This document shows positions 41,155-59,583 of a stretch of DNA of 64,000 bases, piece after piece. How positions within the stretch are numbered: the stretch's first letter is position 1; each line of letters starts with the position of its first letter. The notes below the pieces were generated by a model. It did not search any database. It saw only the letters and a program-made list of their open reading frames with translations, and was not told the origin of the DNA. The position numbers and the translations under genes were made by a program. This DNA is from Halisarca cf. caerulea (taxonomy: Eukaryota; Porifera; Demospongiae; Chondrillida; Halisarcidae): assembly GCA_963170055.1 (NCBI GenBank), contig CAUJGJ010000287.1, forward strand, positions 328,201 through 392,200. Reading direction: 5' to 3'.

Positions 41155-41475
41155 CCAGCTCAGATCCTCACTGCATGGACCTGCATGGAGGAGCAGCTGC
41201 ACATGCAGAGCTTGAGAAGACAAGAAAGTATGCCCACTTTGATCACATGTATCATTTCCAACCTGTTGCTGTGGAAACCTGTGGCTCATTAGTTTGGCCC
41301 TGAATCAAGGTCTTTCTTGCAGGATCTTGGACACCACCTCAGGATGGCCACGGCCGGGAGAGACGTACCCGGTCATTCTCTTTCCTGCTCCAGCGTATGT
41401 CAGTAGCTATTCAGACGGGCAATGTGGTCTCAGTGCTTGGCACCCTGTCCACCAATCATGATTATGACAATGATT
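41155..41475 (+). pseudogene. 3' fragment of the same retrotransposon family
   Basis: Reads with frame breaks as GGAAAHAE, RKYAHFDHMYHFQPVAVETCG, then FSFLLQRMSVAIQTGNVVSVLG, matching the C-terminal end of copies 1 and 2 (KYAHLDRAYMFQPVAFETCG, LLQRLSVAIQVGN). Only the last 100 codons are present. Confidence 0.8.
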
Positions 41476-42589: not shown

Positions 42590-43800
42590 ACGTTGAGTCT
42601 TACATGGGAGCGCCTCATTCTTTTCCCCAGAAGATGTCTTGTTGCACCCGAGGGGTGGCCACATGCAGACAAAACCTGGCCTCTGTCGTCAATCAAGGCG
42701 TTGTAAGTGAGGCAGACCCTTCCATCATGCCACCGGAGAGGGAGCACCAACAGAGCAGTATTGCATCCAACAATTTAACCTAGCTGTCATAGTATCTGCC
42801 AAACTTAAAGAGGGAGATATCAAGGGTGCTGTGCGTGAGGTTGGGTGAACAGTTACTTTCACTCGAGGCTCATGATTCATTGTGCTTAAGTCACTACATA
42901 GTGCATTTTCCATCCTAAGGCTCATGTACACCCTTAGGACTGCTCCTTGTTTCCTATCACCTTGATCTGCTTGATTGTTTGCAGAGATTGTTGTTAGAGT
43001 CCATCTGTAATGTACAGATAAGTGATATATATTAGCTGGCAGCAGGCATCACTACCCATCAACAGTGGAGGCTTGCAAGGGGATTAGGAGTGCTGTTAGG
43101 TATACTGGTACCGTCTGCCTATTTGGCTTCAGCTTGCTGGCAGTGCTCCTATTTCTCAGGCTATTTTGCCAATACAAGCATGGATCCCTCTCTGCCAACC
43201 ATCAAGACACAGGTACTTGATGAATGGGAAAAACTAGCAGGCCAGTCTGTTGAGTCCCCCACAGGATTAATGGCTTCCAAACAGAGAGCTTGGGAGTCTC
43301 TAGTGGTTGAGGGTGCATGGTTTACATCTGGGTGCTCACATTTGTGCCCCCACAACTGCTCCCACTGTGGGGGTAGGATGAACGAGGATGGGTTGCATGG
43401 ACTGAGTTGCCATAGGTGTGTGTGGAGAATTCTCCATTGTAGCCAGCTGAGCACCATCATTAAAGATTCCCTTGTCAGTGCTAACATTCCATCTGTTTTA
43501 GAACCACAGGGACTGTCCTGGTCGGATGGCAAACGCCCTGATGGATGACCATCACACCATGGGCACAGGGTCATCTCCTCATTTGGGATGCCACATGCTG
43601 GGACTCCTTTGCGGTATCTAACCTTCAACCGGCTGCATCAGGTCGACCTGGACGAGTGGCTGACCTGGCTGCAAGGAGGAAGAAGAATACGTATACCGAG
43701 AGATGGCACAGATTCATGATTATGTCCCGATTGCTGTCGAGACGTCAGGGTCATTTGGTGAGGACACAATTACCTTCCTTTACCACATTGCATCACGGTT
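42590..43800 (+). pseudogene. Internally deleted fragment of the retrotransposon family
   Basis: The 5' part (42600-42850) retains WERLILFPRRCL and, in another frame, KLKEGDIKGAVRE, corresponding to the linker upstream of RT. The RT itself is missing. From about 43185 the C-terminal part resumes: the knuckle CSHCGGRMNEDGLHGLSC, LEPQGLSWSDGKRPDG and LIWDATCWDSF, with a stop after RPDG and frameshifts. Clearly dead. Confidence 0.8.

Positions 43801-48316: not shown

Positions 48317-48318
<2 letters not shown>
47520..48318 (+). pseudogene. Degenerate LINE reverse transcriptase, different family
   Basis: Translations in shifting frames give FSKTFDTIPHYELLYKLWRFGITG, SGVP, YLFAED-like and DLGIAIDKSFTFENHY, the order seen in jockey/CR1-like RTs. 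It is interrupted by stops and by a TTGA tandem (47765-47785). The sequence ends in a (TAA)n array at 48318-48353. Confidence 0.65.

Positions 48319-48353
<35 letters not shown>
48318..48353. repeat. (TAA)n microsatellite at a retroelement junction
   Basis: About twelve TAA units exactly between the LINE remnant (47520-48318) and a YLDD-family fragment (from 48354). Confidence 0.97.
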
Positions 48354-48354
<1 letters not shown>

Positions 48355-49250
48355 GGACACTTTGGGGACACCAAGTTTCTATCTCCTGTGTCTTATAAGC
48401 CATGATTTATCATCTGTTGAGGACTTCGAAACTCTTGTCTTCTGCCTCTGGTTTGAAGTTCATCAGTGCTGATAGTGCAACCCTTCTTGGATCACCTCTG
48501 GGAGGTGTAGGTGCAGAAAATAGATACCTAGTCGATAAAGTACATCAACTGTAACTGATGGGTGACCGACTCCATCACCTTGAATACCATGATGCTATTG
48601 TCCTTCTTTGCCATTCCCTAGCCATCCCTTAACTTCTCCACCTTTTGCAAACTTCCCCAGCTTTATGCTCACCATCTCTGGAGTCTTTTATATCCATGCA
48701 AACTCTAAGGTCTATCATCATTTTGAACTTGATGGAGGCATGCAGGCTACCCTCCCAGTTGCAGCTGGTGGCCTGAAAATTAGGAGCGTTTGATGGAGCC
48801 TCCTCACTCACATTGCAGTTGCTCCCCAGTCGCACACCTCATGTCTACCAGAACGAGATGCTGCTCTATTTGCCTGGAAATAAGGGCTAACTGCAGATGT
48901 GCTCCCACCAGAATCTCCATCATCCCATTTGCAAAAAGCCTGGGATCAACCAAAGGTCTAATCACTGAAGGCATAGAGAACAATGACGAGAAATCATGAG
49001 CAGGACTCTCGGCAGTATCCTGTAAGGAGTCTGGTGCATGGCTCAATGCCATGCCAGTCTCTTCCCTCGAGATCAGTTTACAAATAAAACTGTCCACATT
49101 GCTGTTGGACTCAGGTTAGGGGTCCCTTTGTGCCAATCACATAAATGCTCCTTATGTGGCAATGACATGGACCAGTTTGCCATGTTCCTGGTGTGTATTA
49201 GCTCTGATTTATCCACATTGAGGTTCAATCCCAAACCTCACCTTGCTCTA
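48354..49250 (+). pseudogene. Fragment of the YLDD retrotransposon family
   Basis: Starts directly after the TAA array. Frame-shifted matches include LLGSPLGGVG, GDRLHHLEYHDAIVLL, TVHIAVGLRLGVPLCQSHKCSLCGNDMDQFA, all corresponding to the region from after the RT active site to the Cys/His knuckle. Many stops. Confidence 0.75.
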
Positions 49251-49289
49251 CAATTCTTGTCAAATCAGAAGCAATATCGTTGACCTATG

Positions 49290-49490
49290 GTGCCATCATC
49301 CAAGTAGAAAACCTTGAATTTGGATGCCAATTATAAACTGGATATATACTAGCTTGTGAATTATTATGCAAAACAACAAAGGACCAATTGGATCACCCTG
49401 CTGGATACCTTCTGATGAAAGAATCTGTTCACCTTCCTGTAACAATACTGATGAGGCTGAGTATGTTAAGGAGATGAAAGATAGCAGCTC
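49290..49490 (-). pseudogene. Inverted RT fragment
   Basis: On the minus strand the segment reads GEQILSSEGIQQGDPIGPLLFCIIIHKLVY, the same RT block as EGIQQGDPLGPMLFCLTIHKLV in copy 1, but inverted relative to the fragments on both sides. It marks a rearranged nest. Confidence 0.75.
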
Positions 49491-49529
49491 CGAAATAATA
49501 TTAGCAATAATAACAATAATAATATAGGG

Positions 49530-50396
49530 AAAGAGGTTTGGCTTTGCATGTATGGAAACAAGACTTACCACCTGAGACACCTGTACCCAGCACATCTTGT
49601 AGTCAAAAAACTTGGGATAAACCAGGGATTGATGTCTTGTTTGACAGTATCTTTGCCTTGTATAGTGATGATGAATCCAAAGCTAGGCTGCTGGCTACCA
49701 ACTCAGCAGAATCTGGTGCATGGCTAAATGCCCCGCCAGTTTCTTCCCTGGGTCTGACGATGAGTGATGAAGCCATCAGAATTGCTGTGGGTTTGAGAGT
49801 TGGTGCACCGCTTGGGCAGACTCACCAGTGTGCCTTCTGTGGTGCAGAGGTTAACCAATTTGCCAGACATGGTCTCAGTTGCAGGTTTAGCCAAAGGAGA
49901 TTTTCATGCCATGCATAATGCTGTGAACAGTATCATCCATCACGCCCTCGCAGCTGCAAAACTCCCATCTCAGCTGGAGCCCACTGGACTTCACCGAGCA
50001 GATGGAAGGTGTCCTGATGGAATGACCATGGTCCCCTAGGAGCAGGGAAGGTACTTAGTGTGGGATGCTACATGCGTTGACACATTTTGCCAGTTGCACT
50101 GCAGGAGAGCTGCCATCGAGTCATGAGGTGCTGCTGCTTATGCGGAAGAGGAAAAGTACAAAAAGTATGCTCATCTCGACAGCATCTATAGATTTCAGCC
50201 AATTGCCATAGAAACCAGTGGCTCCATAGGTCCCAGATCCAGGGCTTTCCTGAGAGACCTTGGTGAAGAGGGTGACTGGGGAACCCAAATCGTTTGCCTT
50301 TTTGATGCAGAGGATCTCTGTCGCCGTCCAGGTCGGTAATGCAACCTCAGTGATTGGATCCCTCCCTGTCACAGTCAGTGACAACTTTGTTAATTA
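49530..50396 (+). pseudogene. 3' third of the YLDD retrotransposon family
   Basis: Preceded by an AATAATAACAATAATAAT tract (49499-49527). Contains KQDLPPETPVPS, ESGAWLNAPPVSSLGL, CAFCGAEVNQFARHGLSC and, after frameshifts, RCPDGMTMVP, YLVWDATCVDTF and QISVAVQVGNAT-like text. A stop interrupts it after the endonuclease motif. (TAA)n reappears at 50551-50585. Confidence 0.8.
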
Positions 50397-50596
50397 ATGC
50401 ATTGATCAGTATATATTATGTGGGTGGGTGAGTGTGCATTAATTTTGTAACTGATGTTTATGATATAGGCAAGGGTTTTAAGGTCATGTAATTTACTTAT
50501 ATATTCTAAACAATAATATAGGAAATTATATAAGTTTCATTATGTTTGTCATAATAATAATAATGAATAATAATAATAATAATATGATTCAATAGT

Positions 50597-52568: not shown

Positions 52569-52681
52569 TAACAGCATCTTAAGGACCTCTTGGGCCCCAC
52601 GGCCGGGGATGGAGGAGGTTCCCTTTTGAGATCTTTAGTAGGCCTTTCTACACTTATCCTTGAGGGCAGAATTCCCCTCCC
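52569..52681 (+). repeat. 113-bp duplicate of retrotransposon copy 1 sequence
   Basis: AGCATCTTAAGGACCTCTTG... to CCCCATTCGTCCT appears to be identical to about 53686-53800 inside copy 1. It sits between repeat copy C and the 106-bp repeat, just upstream of copy 1. Confidence 0.92.
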
Positions 52682-52682
52682 C

Positions 52683-52795
52683 ATTCGTCCTACGACATAT
52701 TGGCCAAAATATACGATTAAGTGCGTGGGCTTCTCGATCAGACTCCCCTATACGACGGAAACAATTAACCTCGCTAAACCGCTCGGTAATTATTA
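52683..52795 (-). repeat. Inverted copy of the 2087-2192 repeat
   Basis: Reverse complement of 2087-2192; it runs directly into the AATTATTATTAATTATTATAATAAC tract that precedes retrotransposon copy 1. Confidence 0.85.
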
Positions 52796-52823
52796 TTAAT
52801 TATTATAATAACGGGATTTCAAG

Positions 52824-55766
52824 ATGGCGGCAGCGCCGCGCTGTCAATCTTTCTCTAATTCTCGGTGCTGCCCATGTATGAAGAAGGGTCGGTGTGTGAG
52901 ATGCTGCTGCGTGAGCAGGGGAACTCCTTGTATTGATTGCTGGCCGTCTATTGTCAATCCTAGCCGCTGTGAGAACCGTCAAGTACGCCGTGCGTTGCCA
53001 GCCGTTGAGCCTATGGTCAGCGTTGACAGCGCTCCCATTGATCCCCAACCAAGTATCCCTAGTTCTGATATACCATCTATTGACTTCCAGGAAGATATTG
53101 ATTCATTGGTAAGATTATTGAGTAGACCAATTAAGATCCTGAAAAGAATTCCTCGCCTTTCTAGAGTGACTGTTGCCAGGAAGCTCGCTGCTGTGATTGA
53201 GCAGGTAGTTTCTCGAAATGATGTTCCATCCTGGGTCAGATTGCTGTCCTTTCCCAAGAAGTGCCTTTGCACCCCGCGAAGAGGTGGCAAACGTTGGCGA
53301 TTGGCAACCCTAGTCAACGAGCAAATCTCCCAAGAGTCATCAACCATTTCACCAGAAACGCCGGCCATAGTTCGCGCCGCTTCATCGAGGCTTCCTAATC
53401 AGATGGACCAACTGGCTGCCAGAGTGTCAAGTAAGTTAGAGGATGGAGATTACAGAGGGGCCGTCAGGTTAGCATGTAGTGAGGATGTACTGGCAGAGCA
53501 CACCAGCCACACCTTGGATGCACTCAGAGTAATGCACCCCCCCGCACCCAATGCCCATAGATTTGATGACATTGTCATTGACTATAGGCCCTCTTCGCTT
53601 CTCCATTGAAAGTGAGGATATTTTGAAGGTAGTGTCATCATTTCCTAAAGGATCCGGTGGTGGCTTGGATGGCCTACTTCCACAGCATCTTAAGGACCTC
53701 TTGGGCCCCACGGCCGGGGATGGAGGAGGTTCCCTTTTGAGATCTTTAGTAGGCCTTTCTACACTTATCCTTGAGGGCAGAATTCCCCTCCCCATTCGTC
53801 CTCTCTTTGGAGCCAACCTCACTGCCCTTACCAAGAAGTCTGGCAGAATTCTTCCCATAGCAGTTGGCTGTACCTTGAGAAGACTAGCTTCTAACATGCC
53901 TTAAAGTCCATCCCTGAGAAGCTAGCCCCTCATCAGCTGGGATTTGGTGTGGGAGGAGGGTCAGAGGCAGCAGTTCATGCCGGTCGAGTGTACCTCAGTC
54001 ATCTGCAAGATGATAAGGCAATGGTCAAAGTGGACTTCCAGAATGCTTTTAATACCATCCGACGAGACAAAATGCTGAAAGCCATAGAGGAGTACATTCC
54101 GGATTTACTACCTTATGTGCATGCTGCGCATTCAATCCCATCGACCCTACTTTGGAATGGTGAGCAGGTGATTTCAGCTGAGGGAATTCAGCAGGGTGAC
54201 CCCCTTGGCCCCATGCTGTTTTGTCTCACTATTCACAAACTGGTTTCCAGCTTGTCTTCGGAATTCTCTGTTTTTTATCTGGATGATGGCACTCTTGGTG
54301 GTAATTTTGAAGACCTTCAGGCAGACTTGCACAGAATGGGGGTTGAGGGAGAAGCCTTAGGTCTGCACTTAAATGTGGCCAAGTCTGAACTGATAGCTCA
54401 TAGCCTTTCTACATTTAGCAATCATCCAACCTTTGCTGGACTCCAGCATGTTCATCCTGATCAAGCCATGTTGCTGGGTTCTCCCCTTGGGATTGAGGCC
54501 TTAGATGCATGCTTAGAGGCCCATCTTCGTCAGTTGCATCTGGTTGGTGAAAGACTCTGCCATCTCCAAACACAGGATGCCATGATCATCCTCCGGCACT
54601 CCTTTGCCATCCCCAAGCTGCTGCATGTATTGCGTACTTTTCCTGCTTTTTCTTCACCCCACTTAGCATCCTGGGACAACATCCTCATGTCAATTGTTTC
54701 CAGGATTATCAACATTGACTTTAGGTCAGATGATATAGCATGGCTACAGGCAACACTCCCAGTCAATTCAGGTGGTCTTGGGATCAGGCGTGCTTCCCAT
54801 CTTGCAACCTCCGCCTTCTTGGCATCTGCTGATGGAGCCGCAGTCTTGATGATGCAACTTCTACCAGCTGAATTGGCTTCCACTCCATACCCTGAGAGGG
54901 ATTCTGCCCTTTCCACATGGAAGATTGATTTGCCTGAGGAAACACCCCTTCCATCTGACACCAAGCGTCAGAAATCCTGGGATGAACCCAAGGTTCAGCT
55001 ATTGTTTGACACCCTCCTAGCCCGATGTGAAGACCAAGTCTCAAGAGTACGCCTCTTAGCAGCTGGAACCAGGGAATCTGGTGCTTGGCTCAACGCACCA
55101 CCGATTTCCTCACTTGGTTTGCGCATGTCCAATGACACTGTACGCATTGCCAGTGGCCTAAGAGTTGGTGCTCCTCTATGCATGGCTCACATGTGTAGCT
55201 CCTGTGGGACACAGGTAGATGAATATGGCCACCATGGCCTTAGCTGCAGATTTAGCCAGGGAAGAACTTCCCGCCATCAATCATTGAATAACATCATCCA
55301 CCACTCCATGGCATCAGCCAATGTCCCCAGTAGGCTGGAACCCTCTGGCCTGTACAGGTCAGATGGGAACCGCCCGGATGGGGTGACAATGACTCCATGG
55401 TCAAATGGAAGGCTATTAGTGTGGGATGCAACCTGCGTAGACTCATTCTGTGACTCCCACAGGCAGGCAGCCTCACTGGAGGCCGGAGGGGCTGCTGCAC
55501 AGGCAGAAAGAAACAAGGCAAGAAAGTACGCGCACCTGGATAGAGCCTATATGTTTCAGCCTGTGGCATTCGAGACATGTGGTACCACGGGTCCAGAGTC
55601 CCTGCCCTTCCTGCAGGAGCTAGGGAGGCGCCTGAGAAGAGCCACTGGAGAGCCAAACTCCTATTCGTACTTGTTGCAACGCCTGTCTGTAGCCATCCAA
55701 GTGGGCAATTGTGTATCTGTTTTGGGGTCCCTCCCATGTGATTCACAGTCCCTTGACATGGCATGA
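52824..55766 (+). pseudogene. Non-LTR retrotransposon copy 1 (RT + putative restriction-like endonuclease), frameshifted
   Basis: A near-full-length copy whose frame is broken twice, near 53595-53610 and near 53890-53905, giving three reading-frame blocks: 52824-53609, about 53600-53904, and 53949-55766. In order: a Cys-rich box (CCPCMKKGRCVRC, about residues 14-42), a linker with KILKRIPRLSRVTVA and FPKKCL blocks, then reverse transcriptase with KVDFQNAFNTIRRD, EGIQQGDPLGPMLF and the active site FYLDDGTLGG (about 54270-54300), a Cys/His knuckle (CSSC...HGLSC, about 55198-55250), then DGNRPDGVT and LVWDATCVD (about 55366-55440), read as a PD-type restriction-like endonuclease. No apurinic-type endonuclease domain precedes the RT. 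The 5' flank has TAA/ATT tracts and the 3' flank (TAA)n. Clade not assigned; endonuclease call is inference. Confidence 0.85.
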
Positions 55767-55993
55767 TTAATTTTCCTGCATGCTTATTATTGCAATATGT
55801 GTACATGTGTATAATAATAATAATAATAAATGTATGTTGTAGGTGTACTGTTTTGTTTCTGTATGCGTATACACGTGTTGTTATTATTATTTATGGCATT
55901 TTCTCATTACATATTATTTTGAAGACATGAATTTCACCCTTATCATTATATATATATTGTATCAGTCTGTTTCATTTAAAAATTATAATAGTA

Positions 55994-58900
55994 ATAACTC
56001 TCGATTAGCCCGTTGCTGCCCATGCATGAAGAATGGTCGGTGTGTTAGGTGCAAATGTGTCAGAAGAGGTACTCCTTGCTTTGATTGTTGGCCGTCCTTA
56101 ACAAATCCGGTAAGATATCAAAATTCTATCCATTCGAACGCTGTGGCTACCACGTGCCAGTTGAATTCAAATACTTCAAACAGCACCACCGATGCGGTTT
56201 CGAATGTGCCGGCTTCTCAATTTTTTACTGATCAACAGAGCTCTCAACTCTCACGCATTGTGCGTGAGACACACGCATCAGCACCACAGCTCACGCTCAC
56301 ACGCATCAGTGTCACCTTTCTCACGCAATAATCAGTTGGCAATTAAGGCTACACACATTAATGTAAACTTTGTCACACATCAATGAGGTGGCAGCTACAG
56401 TAGCTACTGGTACCACTTCCACTTCCCAAACTAGGCCAGTGTGGTTCAAAGGGTATTTTAGCCATGCCATAAGCATAATATCCTTACTATTTACCATGCA
56501 AATTTTGAAATTCTTTCTGAAAAAGCATTATTGTTGCATATTATTACATTTAGTATATTTGATGGTTAACTTGAAAGCATGTCTCACTCGTAAGTATAGT
56601 AATCTCACTCATTCTAATACAAGATCTCACACATGGGGCACACAAAGGGTTGAGAGCTCTGGATCAATCACCTGATGATTTGCTTCAGCACGGTGACAGA
56701 GCTCAAGACTCTTCAGTGTCCACGGATACTGATCGTCTTGTTGATCGTCTTGTTGGTTTTCTAGGTCAGCCCACGGCTTTGCTCAAAAGAATCCCGCGGC
56801 TATCGAGAATAACTGTGGCAATCAAGCTTTCGTCCATAATTGAGAATATTATTTCCAATAACGATTTTGCATCATGGTCAAGATTGCTTCAATTTCCAAA
56901 GAAATGTTTGTTTAGACCTCAAAGGGGAGGCAGGCGATGGAAGCTAGCACAACTAGTTAACAACAACGTCTCTCGGGAGCTCACAGTCACCAACAATGAC
57001 CCCATACCAAGCGTTCACAATCAAAGAACTCGATCTAACACTGACAAACCTGGCCATGCCATGGAGGTTCTGATGAATAGGGTATCTATGAAGCTGGAGG
57101 AAGCAGACTATAGAGGTGCTGTCAGATTGGTGAGTTCTGAGGATGTCATTGCGGATCGGTCTGACGCCACTCTTGCCGCACTGAGGAAGAAACATCCCCC
57201 ACCCCATATTGAATCCTCCATGCCAGAAGCAGTGAATGAGTCGGTGTTGCCTTTCACCATAGATGCAGCTCAAATTTCCAAAGCAATCATGTCTTTCCCA
57301 AGTGGCTCAAGCGGAGGATGCGATGGCCTACTACCACAGCATTTAAAAGATCTTGTAGGTCCGTCAGCTGGTGATGGGGGGGTGCGGCTCTTGAAGGCTT
57401 TGGAGAGCTTAATCACCCTCATCCTGGAGGGTAGAACACCAAGTGAAATTCAACCCATTTTTTTTGGAGCTTCATTGACACCTTTGAAGAAAAAGAGTGG
57501 GGGCATCCGTCCCATTGCAGTTGGTTGCACAATTAGGAGACTGGCATCCAAGTGCGCCATCACCCACGCCCTCGGTTCCACTCCCCAACTCCTGTCTCCT
57601 CATCAGCTTGGGTTTGGGATACCAGGGGGAGTGGAGGCAGCGGTTCACGCATGTAGAGTGTACGCTAACCATCTCCCACCAGAAAAAGCGATTCTGAAGG
57701 TGGACTTCGAGAATGCCTTCAACAGCATTAGGAGGGATAAAATTCTCCGTGCTGTTGAAAGGTATATCCCAGACCTACTCCCATATGTCATGTCCGCGTA
57801 CTCCAAGCCATCAATCCTCCTGTGGGAGAGCATCCAATTGGCCTCGGCTGAAGGCATTCAACAAGGAGACCGAATTGGGCCTTTGCTGTTCTGTATTGCC
57901 ATCCACGACCTTGTGTCGGCCTTATCATCCGAATTCAAGGTTTTTTATCTGGATGATGGCACCATTGGAGGTTCTCCAGAGTCTCTGACTGCGGACTTGA
58001 GGACCATTGAGGAGAAAGGACAGGAGCTCGGCCTGTGTCTCAATGTCATGAAGTCCGAGTTGATTTGCACTGATAGATCAGCAATGCAGAGTTTTCTTTT
58101 GGAGTTTCCAGGTCTGCAGCCGATGTCGCCCAATGAAGCAGTACTTTTGGGATCCCCTTTGGGTGATGGTTCCATGACCGCAGTACTTGAATCTCAACTA
58201 CAGCAACTTAAGGTTGTTGGGGAGCGATTGTGTTATCTCCAAACTCATGATGCCTTAACAATACTCCGCAATTCCTTTGCCATCCCAAAGCTCCTCCACA
58301 TACTGCGTACATCCCCTGCTTTTATGTCTCCATTGCTGTTGTCCTGGGATAACCTATTGCTTTCCATCTTTTCCAGAATTACCAACATCGATTTCAATCC
58401 TGAGGATCCCTCCTGGATTCAGGCTACTCTACCAGTCAGATGTGGTGGTCTTGGCATCAGAAGAGCTTCCTTCCTTGCCCCCTCTGCCTTCTTGGCTTCA
58501 GCTGAAGGAGCTTCCGTTTTGGTGCGAGACTTATTACCAGTTCATTTGGCCAACTTCCCTATCTCCAACTATCCTGAGAGGGATTCTGCCTTGGCTACTT
58601 GGAGCAAGGATCTATCACCATTACATACTCCAAATACATCTAGCTCACAGAGAATGTGGGAGGAACCAAGGGTGGCGTCTGTCCTCGATTCTCTTTTGGC
58701 AACAGGTGATCAGGAGTCCACAGCAAGACTTTTAGCTGCTAGCTCCAATGAGTCCGGTGCATGGCTGCATGCACCTCCGATCTCTTCGCTTGGGCTCCGA
58801 ATGAGTAATGATGCTGTCAGAATTGCTGTGGGCCTGAGAGTTGGAGCACCTCTGTGTCAGCCTCACACCTGTGCCCATTGTGGTAAGGGGGTGGACCAGT

Positions 58901-59448
58901 TTGGTAGACACGGCCTTAGTTGCAAGTCCAGTCAGGGGAGGAGGTCTCGTCACCAAGCTATCAATAACATTGTCTTGCACTCTCTTGCATCTGCCAACAT
59001 CCCTTCCAGACTGGAACCATCTGGACTTCATCGTTCGGATGGCAAACGTCCAGATGGGGTATCTCTGGTTCCTTGGTCTGCAGGAAAATACCTTGTATGG
59101 GACGCTACATGCGTTGACACATTCAGTCCATCCAACCTCCAACAATCTAAAGATGTGTCTGGGGGCGCAGCTGCCAAGGCTGAAGGCGTGAAGACCAGCA
59201 AATACTCTCATCTCGATAGGGTTTACAACTTTCAGCCCATTGCTTTCGAGACCTGTGGTAGCACAGGGCCATCATCTGAGGCCTTTCTGAGGGACTTGGG
59301 GAGGAGGCTGAGGATGGCTACAGGAGAGCCAAAGTCATACACCTACTTACTTCAGCGACTCTCAGTTGCCATCCAGGTTGGGAATGCTGCCAGTGTGATG
59401 GGAACGCTTCCATCTGATTCCCAGGACATTGATTTTGATGTTGATTGA
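55994..59448 (+). mobile_element. Non-LTR retrotransposon copy 2, RT/endonuclease frame open for 930 codons
   Basis: Second long copy of the same family, 230 bp downstream of copy 1. The Cys-rich box (RCCPCMKNGRCVRC, 56008-56110) lies 5', then a foldback insertion (about 56237-56660) interrupts the linker, after which 56650-59448 stays open to the TGA. Motifs: KRIPRLSRITVAIKL, FPKKCLFRPQRGGRRW, KVDFENAFNSIRRDK, EGIQQGDRIGPLLF, FYLDDGTIGG (about 57940-57970), knuckle CAHC...HGLSC (about 58870-58925), KRPDGVSLVPW and VWDATCVDTF (about 59045-59125). The product is closely similar to copy 1, yet many substitutions separate them, so they are distinct insertions and not a recent duplication. The frame entering at 56650 has no ATG; the natural start was upstream and this copy lacks an aligned start codon. 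Confidence 0.87.
56237..56660. mobile_element. MITE-like foldback inserted in retrotransposon copy 2
   Basis: The left edge AGAGCTCTCAAC and right edge GTTGAGAGCTCT are perfect 12-bp inverted ends. Just inside the left end is a perfect hairpin TCTCACGCA-TTG-TGCGTGAGA. The interior has repeated CACACGCATCA-type and TCTCACTC-type strings and stop codons in the reading frame of the host element. Copy 1 has no counterpart of this segment. No transposase is encoded. Confidence 0.6.
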
Positions 59449-59499
59449 CGCCTGTCCCCCTTTATTTTGTTTGAATTATTATTTATATATGGTGCATGT

Positions 59500-59552
59500 G
59501 TATGTGTTAGAGTATGTGTTAGAGTATGTGTTAGAGTATGTGTTAGAATATG
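59500..59552. repeat. 12-bp tandem repeat in 3' flank of retrotransposon copy 2
   Basis: About four copies of AGAGTATGTGTT lie 50 bp after the stop codon of copy 2 and are followed by an ATAATAGTAATAATAATAG tract (59557-59583). Confidence 0.8.
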
Positions 59553-59583
59553 ACATTATAATAGTAATAATAATAGTAATAGC

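Follow-up and report, generated by a model that had tools for sequence, protein, structure and literature searches.

A family of YLDD-type non-LTR retrotransposons with a predicted restriction-like endonuclease and a probable preference for TAA/TTA tracts in the sponge Halisarca cf. caerulea

Non-long-terminal-repeat (non-LTR) retrotransposons with a restriction-like endonuclease (RLE) are represented in the sponge Halisarca cf. caerulea by a family that very probably inserts preferentially into (TAA)n or (TTA)n microsatellites. Two long copies lie in the stretch analysed here (the window: 64,000 nt of contig CAUJGJ010000287.1, positions 328,201 to 392,200 of the forward strand, in assembly GCA_963170055.1, which comprises 194 Mb in 454 contigs): copy 1, whose first frame begins at 52824, and copy 2, whose N-terminal part begins at 55998. 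An earlier note on this DNA, made from the sequence alone, had described the reverse transcriptase (RT) and C-terminal motifs of these copies and proposed a Dong-like preference for TAA repeats. Its observation is confirmed by the present analysis and its interpretation is supported: TAA tracts are far more frequent in the flanks of the copies read here than in background sequence, and none of the three findings that the note had named as refuting was made.

Insertion junctions and TAA/TTA tracts

A run was defined as a perfect TAA- or TTA-type stretch of 9 nt or more, and junctions, set partly by eye, were read for two groups of copies: family A, the group of copy 2 (18 main places with 85-100% DNA identity, from at least 42 matches), and family D, the group of copy 1 (at least 46 matches), together with the full-length starts of related sub-families. 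Full-length starts came from 17 ATGGCGGC matches in 18 loci, 4 being excluded because the N-terminus of the family does not follow. Family-A loci L049, L051 and L053 (unclean edges) and family-D places matching from the first query base were excluded from the truncated 5' junctions, and L054 and L055 additionally from the 3' flanks. As flank background we used the outer 600 nt of those loci among L009-L068 that measure at least 3,000 nt, excluding N segments; these loci partly overlap, and the background windows are not fully independent.

Of 13 full-length copies, 12 have a run in the 60 nt before the ATG (background 31/1050 windows), and of 23 truncated 5' junctions, 12 have one in the 40 nt upstream (36/1575 blocks in the outer flanks), the latter an enrichment of about 20-fold; in positions 1-40000 of the window, 12 of 999 40-nt blocks contain a run. 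Overall, 24 of 36 5' ends lie in TAA/TTA tracts, reading TAA in 18 and TTA in 6 on the element strand, and the junction sequence varies from copy to copy. Runs are also found within 60 nt of 18 of 24 3' ends (background 31/1050). The 5' junctions weigh most in this result, because a 3' tail cannot generate runs at the 5' end. Twenty copies could be read at both ends, of which 9 have a run at both and 6 at one.

On either side of copy 2 the 16-nt sequence ATTATAATAGTAATAA stands as a direct repeat, at 55982-55997 and again at 59555-59570, the latter member inside a TAA-type tract that reaches about 59583; none of 500 shuffles gave a repeat as long, and it is a probable target-site duplication. 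Copy 1 is preceded by a TTA/TAA tract at 52786-52809, immediately before its 5' leader. For a copy designated C286, both flanks are themselves repeats, and only a paralogous, indirect empty site was seen. As a separate observation, locus L028, which holds a family-D copy, contains ATGGCGGCCGAGTGACGGTCTGGGTACGAGACTAG-type matches on opposite strands, near 997 (plus) and 4533 (minus numbering); these are likely an unrelated repeat.

Gene anatomy, endonuclease and phylogenetic position

The coding part of copy 2 is a 932-amino-acid open frame on the plus strand (56650-59448), whose stretch 56662-59448 encodes RT, linker, knuckle and endonuclease; Pfam detects RVT_1 in it with E 1.7e-20. The YLDD catalytic motif stands at 57946-57957 (residues 433-436, within FYLDDG), a CCHC knuckle of the form C-X2-C-X9-H-X3-C at 58870-58923 (residues 741-758), and the restriction-like endonuclease domain at 58933-59400. 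Within that domain KRPDG begins at residue 799 and is followed by WDAT, the proposed catalytic residues being D802 (59053-59055), D818 (59101-59103) and K848 (59191-59193), all on the plus strand, with 15 residues separating D802 and D818. These motifs are as the earlier note had read them, including the FYLDDG variant, the (R/K)RPDG and the DAT 15 residues on. Upstream of the frame, 55998-56235 (plus strand) carries the N-terminal part with its cysteine cluster, slightly truncated at the 5' end and without the ATGGCGGC start. Between the two parts lies an insertion of 426 nt (56236-56661), whose ends are inverted repeats of 16 nt (94%) and which is accompanied by a duplication of the 6 nt GATCAA; it is missing from the sister copy L010 and is probably a non-autonomous DNA transposon. 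The 3' untranslated region (3'UTR) occupies 59449-59554 (plus strand) and contains a 12-nt minisatellite at 59500-59552.

Copy 1, also on the plus strand, has the same domain order split over two frames and retains the ATGGCGGC start: an N-terminal frame terminated by a stop (52824-53609, with the cysteine cluster at about 52857-52970), and a second part with RT, linker, knuckle and endonuclease (53949-55766). Its 5' leader is very short (52810-52823), and the terminal ..TTTCAAG before the ATG is common to several sister copies. Searches of Rfam, which a diverged ribozyme could escape, gave no match at E<=1 in 52740-53100 and none at gathering score in 40000-62000. The 3'UTR (55767-55960) holds an internal TAA tract at 55811-55828. 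The TAA-type tracts listed in the earlier note are all present at the stated positions. The one at 55809-55829, however, is internal to this 3'UTR, which sister copies have in common, and does not flank the copy: a sister copy on C312 matches across it (99% over window positions 55764-55955); as the overall match covers 54900-55960, the 3' end of copy 1 therefore lies near 55960. The folding stability of the 3'UTRs is not unusual (z -0.96 and 1.60). A piece of about 60 nt beside the internal tract (55830-55891) recurs genome-wide, for example at C150:2696778-2696843 and on C241 (L086); among the matches listed, with 81-100% identity, 27 of 42 lack the start of the UTR, and the piece also stands 82 nt past the C150 copy, whose protein is only 49% identical, as well as in L086. 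The RT may recognise this piece as a conserved tail; alternatively, the piece may be the tail of a short interspersed nuclear element. Just upstream of copy 1, 52571-52691 (plus strand) is an exact 121-nt duplicate (100%) of the internal segment 53682-53802, which may have arisen by templated repair, conversion or assembly.

The C-terminus is predicted to adopt an R2-type PD-(D/E)XK fold with conserved catalytic residues, in line with the PD-type nuclease that had been suggested from the motifs, and R2 is the best sequence match in the Protein Data Bank (PDB) for both the family protein and the profile. No apurinic endonuclease was found by Pfam in 11 proteins scanned (7 homologues and 4 proteins of the window, for which its absence upstream of the RT had already been remarked); among the window proteins, one Pfam match below threshold, to C1_1, falls over the knuckle. 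By RT type, and by a CCHC knuckle and then a predicted PD-(D/E)XK nuclease C-terminal to the RT, the family is assigned to the RLE-type non-LTR elements.

The family is large: at least 459 protein homologues were found at E<=0.001 in a search where scoring was confined to the 7,993 candidates with the most words in common, and the best 120 of the 459 are 42-99% identical. Among the 140 homologues listed, the catalytic motif is YLDD in 111, YMDD in 11, FLDD in 6 and YIDD in 2, with none found by pattern in 10. Deeper relatives at 26-32% identity come from five contigs deposited under bacterial assemblies (L088-L092), which are probably eukaryotic contamination; their motifs are YMDD, YLDD or FLDD, and IQDD in the most distant. 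Viral contigs gave 98 pattern matches, with no relative among them. The copies here begin with a cysteine cluster, CCPCMxxGRCVRCxCVxxGxxCxDCWPS, which we label CXC-like by its resemblance to known motifs, and which has no match in Pfam and none in PDB at E<=10. Of the 140 homologues, 51 fit a C-X2-C...H...C pattern and one (P0008) carries the cysteine cluster in full; some, P0005 and P0006 among them, start part-way through it or are too short for either type to be assigned. Two distant copies in the sponge genome carry the cluster and a third is of the C-X2-C...H...C type.

Two phylogenetic trees were built. The first was made from selected rows: 14 of the YLDD type (the window protein plus 13 of the 140 homologues listed), 14 of 120 R2-like proteins with R2Bm, LINE-1, two apurinic-endonuclease long interspersed nuclear elements (LINEs) of the same genome, and group II intron RTs; from the second, P0007 and L001 were removed and four deeper loci were added, leaving out L089, a near copy of L088. 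In the first tree the 14 YLDD proteins make a single clade (100/99) whose stem is very long; in the second the YLDD rows and the four deeper relatives together make one (100/99), inside which the YLDD rows group with 79/90. No YLDD row falls inside R2, and joining the clade with R2 gave p-AU (approximately unbiased test) of 0.557 and 0.368, values that neither establish nor reject R2 as the sister group. The best trees unite R2 and the apurinic-endonuclease LINEs to the exclusion of YLDD, with support of only 43/17 and 55/60; the branching order among the three is untrustworthy because long branches meet, and the caution of the earlier note over the clade still holds. In the same genome 98 places match an R2 RT query (best 7.9e-37, 27% identity), at least two of them being apurinic-type LINE loci (L001 and L006); some of these RTs, for example C290:3738201-3739508, match the whole zebra finch R2 RT at 27% identity and have long open frames.

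Alternative explanations and proposed mechanism

Several observations weigh against a preference for TAA/TTA tracts, the first of which lowers our confidence: 5 of the 20 copies read at both ends have a run at neither; 11 of the 23 truncated 5' junctions have none; two distant sub-family copies, each with about 90-115 nt of upstream sequence, show no run; the first seven letters of the 16-nt repeat around copy 2 also occur in the tails of sister copies; and the ends of copy 1 share only a 9-nt repeat (16 of 500 shuffles were as long). Some of this would fit tracts that are the element's own 3' tail, added at otherwise unspecific insertions, as I-factor-like elements have a tail of such kind at the 3' end. 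The internal TAA runs of the 3'UTRs, the differences in 3' ends between copies and the truncated junctions lacking a run favour such a tail, which nevertheless by itself explains neither the 5' runs at full-length and truncated copies nor the direct repeat that brackets copy 2. Moreover, relatives of the repeat flanking C286 cross a TTA tract without the element, as at C79:1494099-1494359 (query 200-460, 92%), evidence that is indirect because the left 30 nt are tract. We regard the tail explanation as unlikely. Even less probable is that TAA tracts are simply common in the genome, or that recombination or assembly joined copies at microsatellites: the window does contain 30 runs of at least 9 nt, about one per 2 kb, and simple repeats are prone to misassembly, but the enrichment at truncated 5' junctions speaks against it, as does the copy C290, which has an identical AAT tract on both sides. 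When its flanks were joined, the genome matches were the two occupied edges and partial relatives at 72-80%, with no full empty site; nothing else in the genome matches the 5' flank in full, and the 3' flank has only the partial ones.

The remaining alternative concerns the enzyme, and would make the family an apurinic-endonuclease LINE from which that domain has gone and in which the C-terminus survives in degenerate form. Its RT part is most like LINE-1 ORF2p in VIA-align, and although the YLDD proteins do not fall inside the apurinic-endonuclease clade in the best trees, a check the earlier note had proposed, the test does not formally reject such a placement (p-AU 0.135 and 0.082). The confidently predicted R2-type nuclease fold with its conserved catalytic residues, and the lack of an apurinic endonuclease in all 11 proteins, make this origin highly improbable.

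Copies are also clustered. At least 88 family places exist genome-wide after merging pieces up to 1.5 kb apart, and 6 neighbour pairs lie 1.5-10 kb apart, against about 0.33 expected under uniform spread of 88 places; tandem, head-to-head and nested copies separated by TAA tracts occur in L020, L054 and the present window (judged partly by eye). We infer that TAA ends of older copies act as new targets. For an RLE element preferring TAA/TTA microsatellites, the cysteine cluster of the N-terminus, together with the knuckle and RLE, would tether element RNA and protein to a TAA tract, and the C-terminal PD-(D/E)XK nuclease (D802, D818, K848) would nick one strand within it. Target-primed reverse transcription by the YLDD RT would then start at the 3' end of the element RNA and frequently halt early, leaving the 5'-truncated copies. 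New copies, bordered by TAA tracts, would in turn be open to further insertion, giving clusters like that in the window. A bolder scenario, which we consider doubtful, is that the YLDD elements form an RLE clade of their own, ancient and distinct from CRE, R2, R4, NeSL and HERO, present in many eukaryotes (hundreds of mostly unnamed proteins and the deeper relatives), and that in the present host one branch exchanged the usual C-X2-C...H...C finger for the CXC-like cluster, acquired a preference for TAA tracts and builds self-propagating arrays; C176 carries the N-terminal cluster but lacks a 5' TAA run.

Fragments in the window and comparison with known systems

Besides the two long copies, as noted earlier, tblastn of the family protein (P0001) against the window located six further fragments and not the five first counted. 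They comprise a C-terminal part (41178-41474, plus strand, residues 835-932, 48% identity); a frameshifted knuckle and endonuclease region in two tblastn stretches (43342-43715, plus strand, residues 735-861); residues 488-761 at 48450-49205 (plus strand); an RT region in two stretches on the minus strand (49160-49490, residues 375-484); residues 641-926 in three stretches (49523-50382, plus strand); and 52572-52715. A (TAA)12 tract (48318-48353; 100% matches by Tandem Repeats Finder) adjoins fragments, a TAA-type tract at 49499-49527 separates two fragments on opposite strands, and another TAA tract (50551-50585) lies downstream of the fragment at 49523-50382.

Site-specific gene insertion by target priming can take R2-type elements as a starting point. 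Comparison with a large, diverged family that pairs an R2-like nuclease with another target and another N-terminus would help to tell which domain sets the target, and such a family would illustrate a microsatellite-preferring element seeding its own clusters. The family is unusual in that its active site reads YLDD, in how far it stands from R2, in the shortness of its 5' leader and in the cysteine cluster of its N-terminus; a literature search found no paper pairing YLDD with RLE elements, which says nothing on Repbase, and the papers that do connect YLDD with non-LTR reverse transcriptases appear, by their listing, to treat other elements. With R2 (R2Bm, R2Tg and Platysternon R2) it shares the order RT-linker-CCHC knuckle-RLE, the RLE fold as predicted and the Asp/Asp/Lys pattern. 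It differs in having YLDD where R2 has ADD (117 of 120 R2-like proteins listed), in forming a separate clade on a long stem, in junctions that, where read, lie in TAA/TTA tracts or other sequence with no fixed site, and in its N-terminal CXC-like cluster.

As far as the available excerpts of the cited papers describe them, RLE non-LTR retrotransposons in microsatellites are already known from Dong, some HERO elements and Togen (PMC3636483, PMC4640811, PMC3774820), and our comparison with these and with CRE is by description only. The knuckle spacing given for RLE LINEs, CX2-3CX7-8HX4C (PMC5678591), just excludes the C-X2-C-X9-H-X3-C of the present family. Dong/R4 elements are alike in being of RLE type and inserting next to TAA repeats: the 5'-junction primer and assay for Dong contain 7 TAA repeats (PMC3774820), and DongAg and DongBg are located in microsatellites (PMC3636483). 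The Dong 5' end bears a self-cleaving HDV-like ribozyme (PMC3774820), whereas 5' leaders in the present family measure about 10-30 nt, that of copy 1 having no Rfam match. HERO/Togen elements likewise combine an RLE with targets that in some are microsatellites, Togen's repeat being a different one, (TG)n (PMC4640811). A Nymphon striatum homologue (P0131, 42% identity) carries the source-given name 'Retrotransposable element SLACS protein', and a deep placement in the tree would fit CRE/SLACS, though without support; the CRE-clade elements described in those papers target spliced leaders or telomeres (PMC3636483, PMC12857005), unlike the TAA/TTA tracts found at the ends of the family described here.
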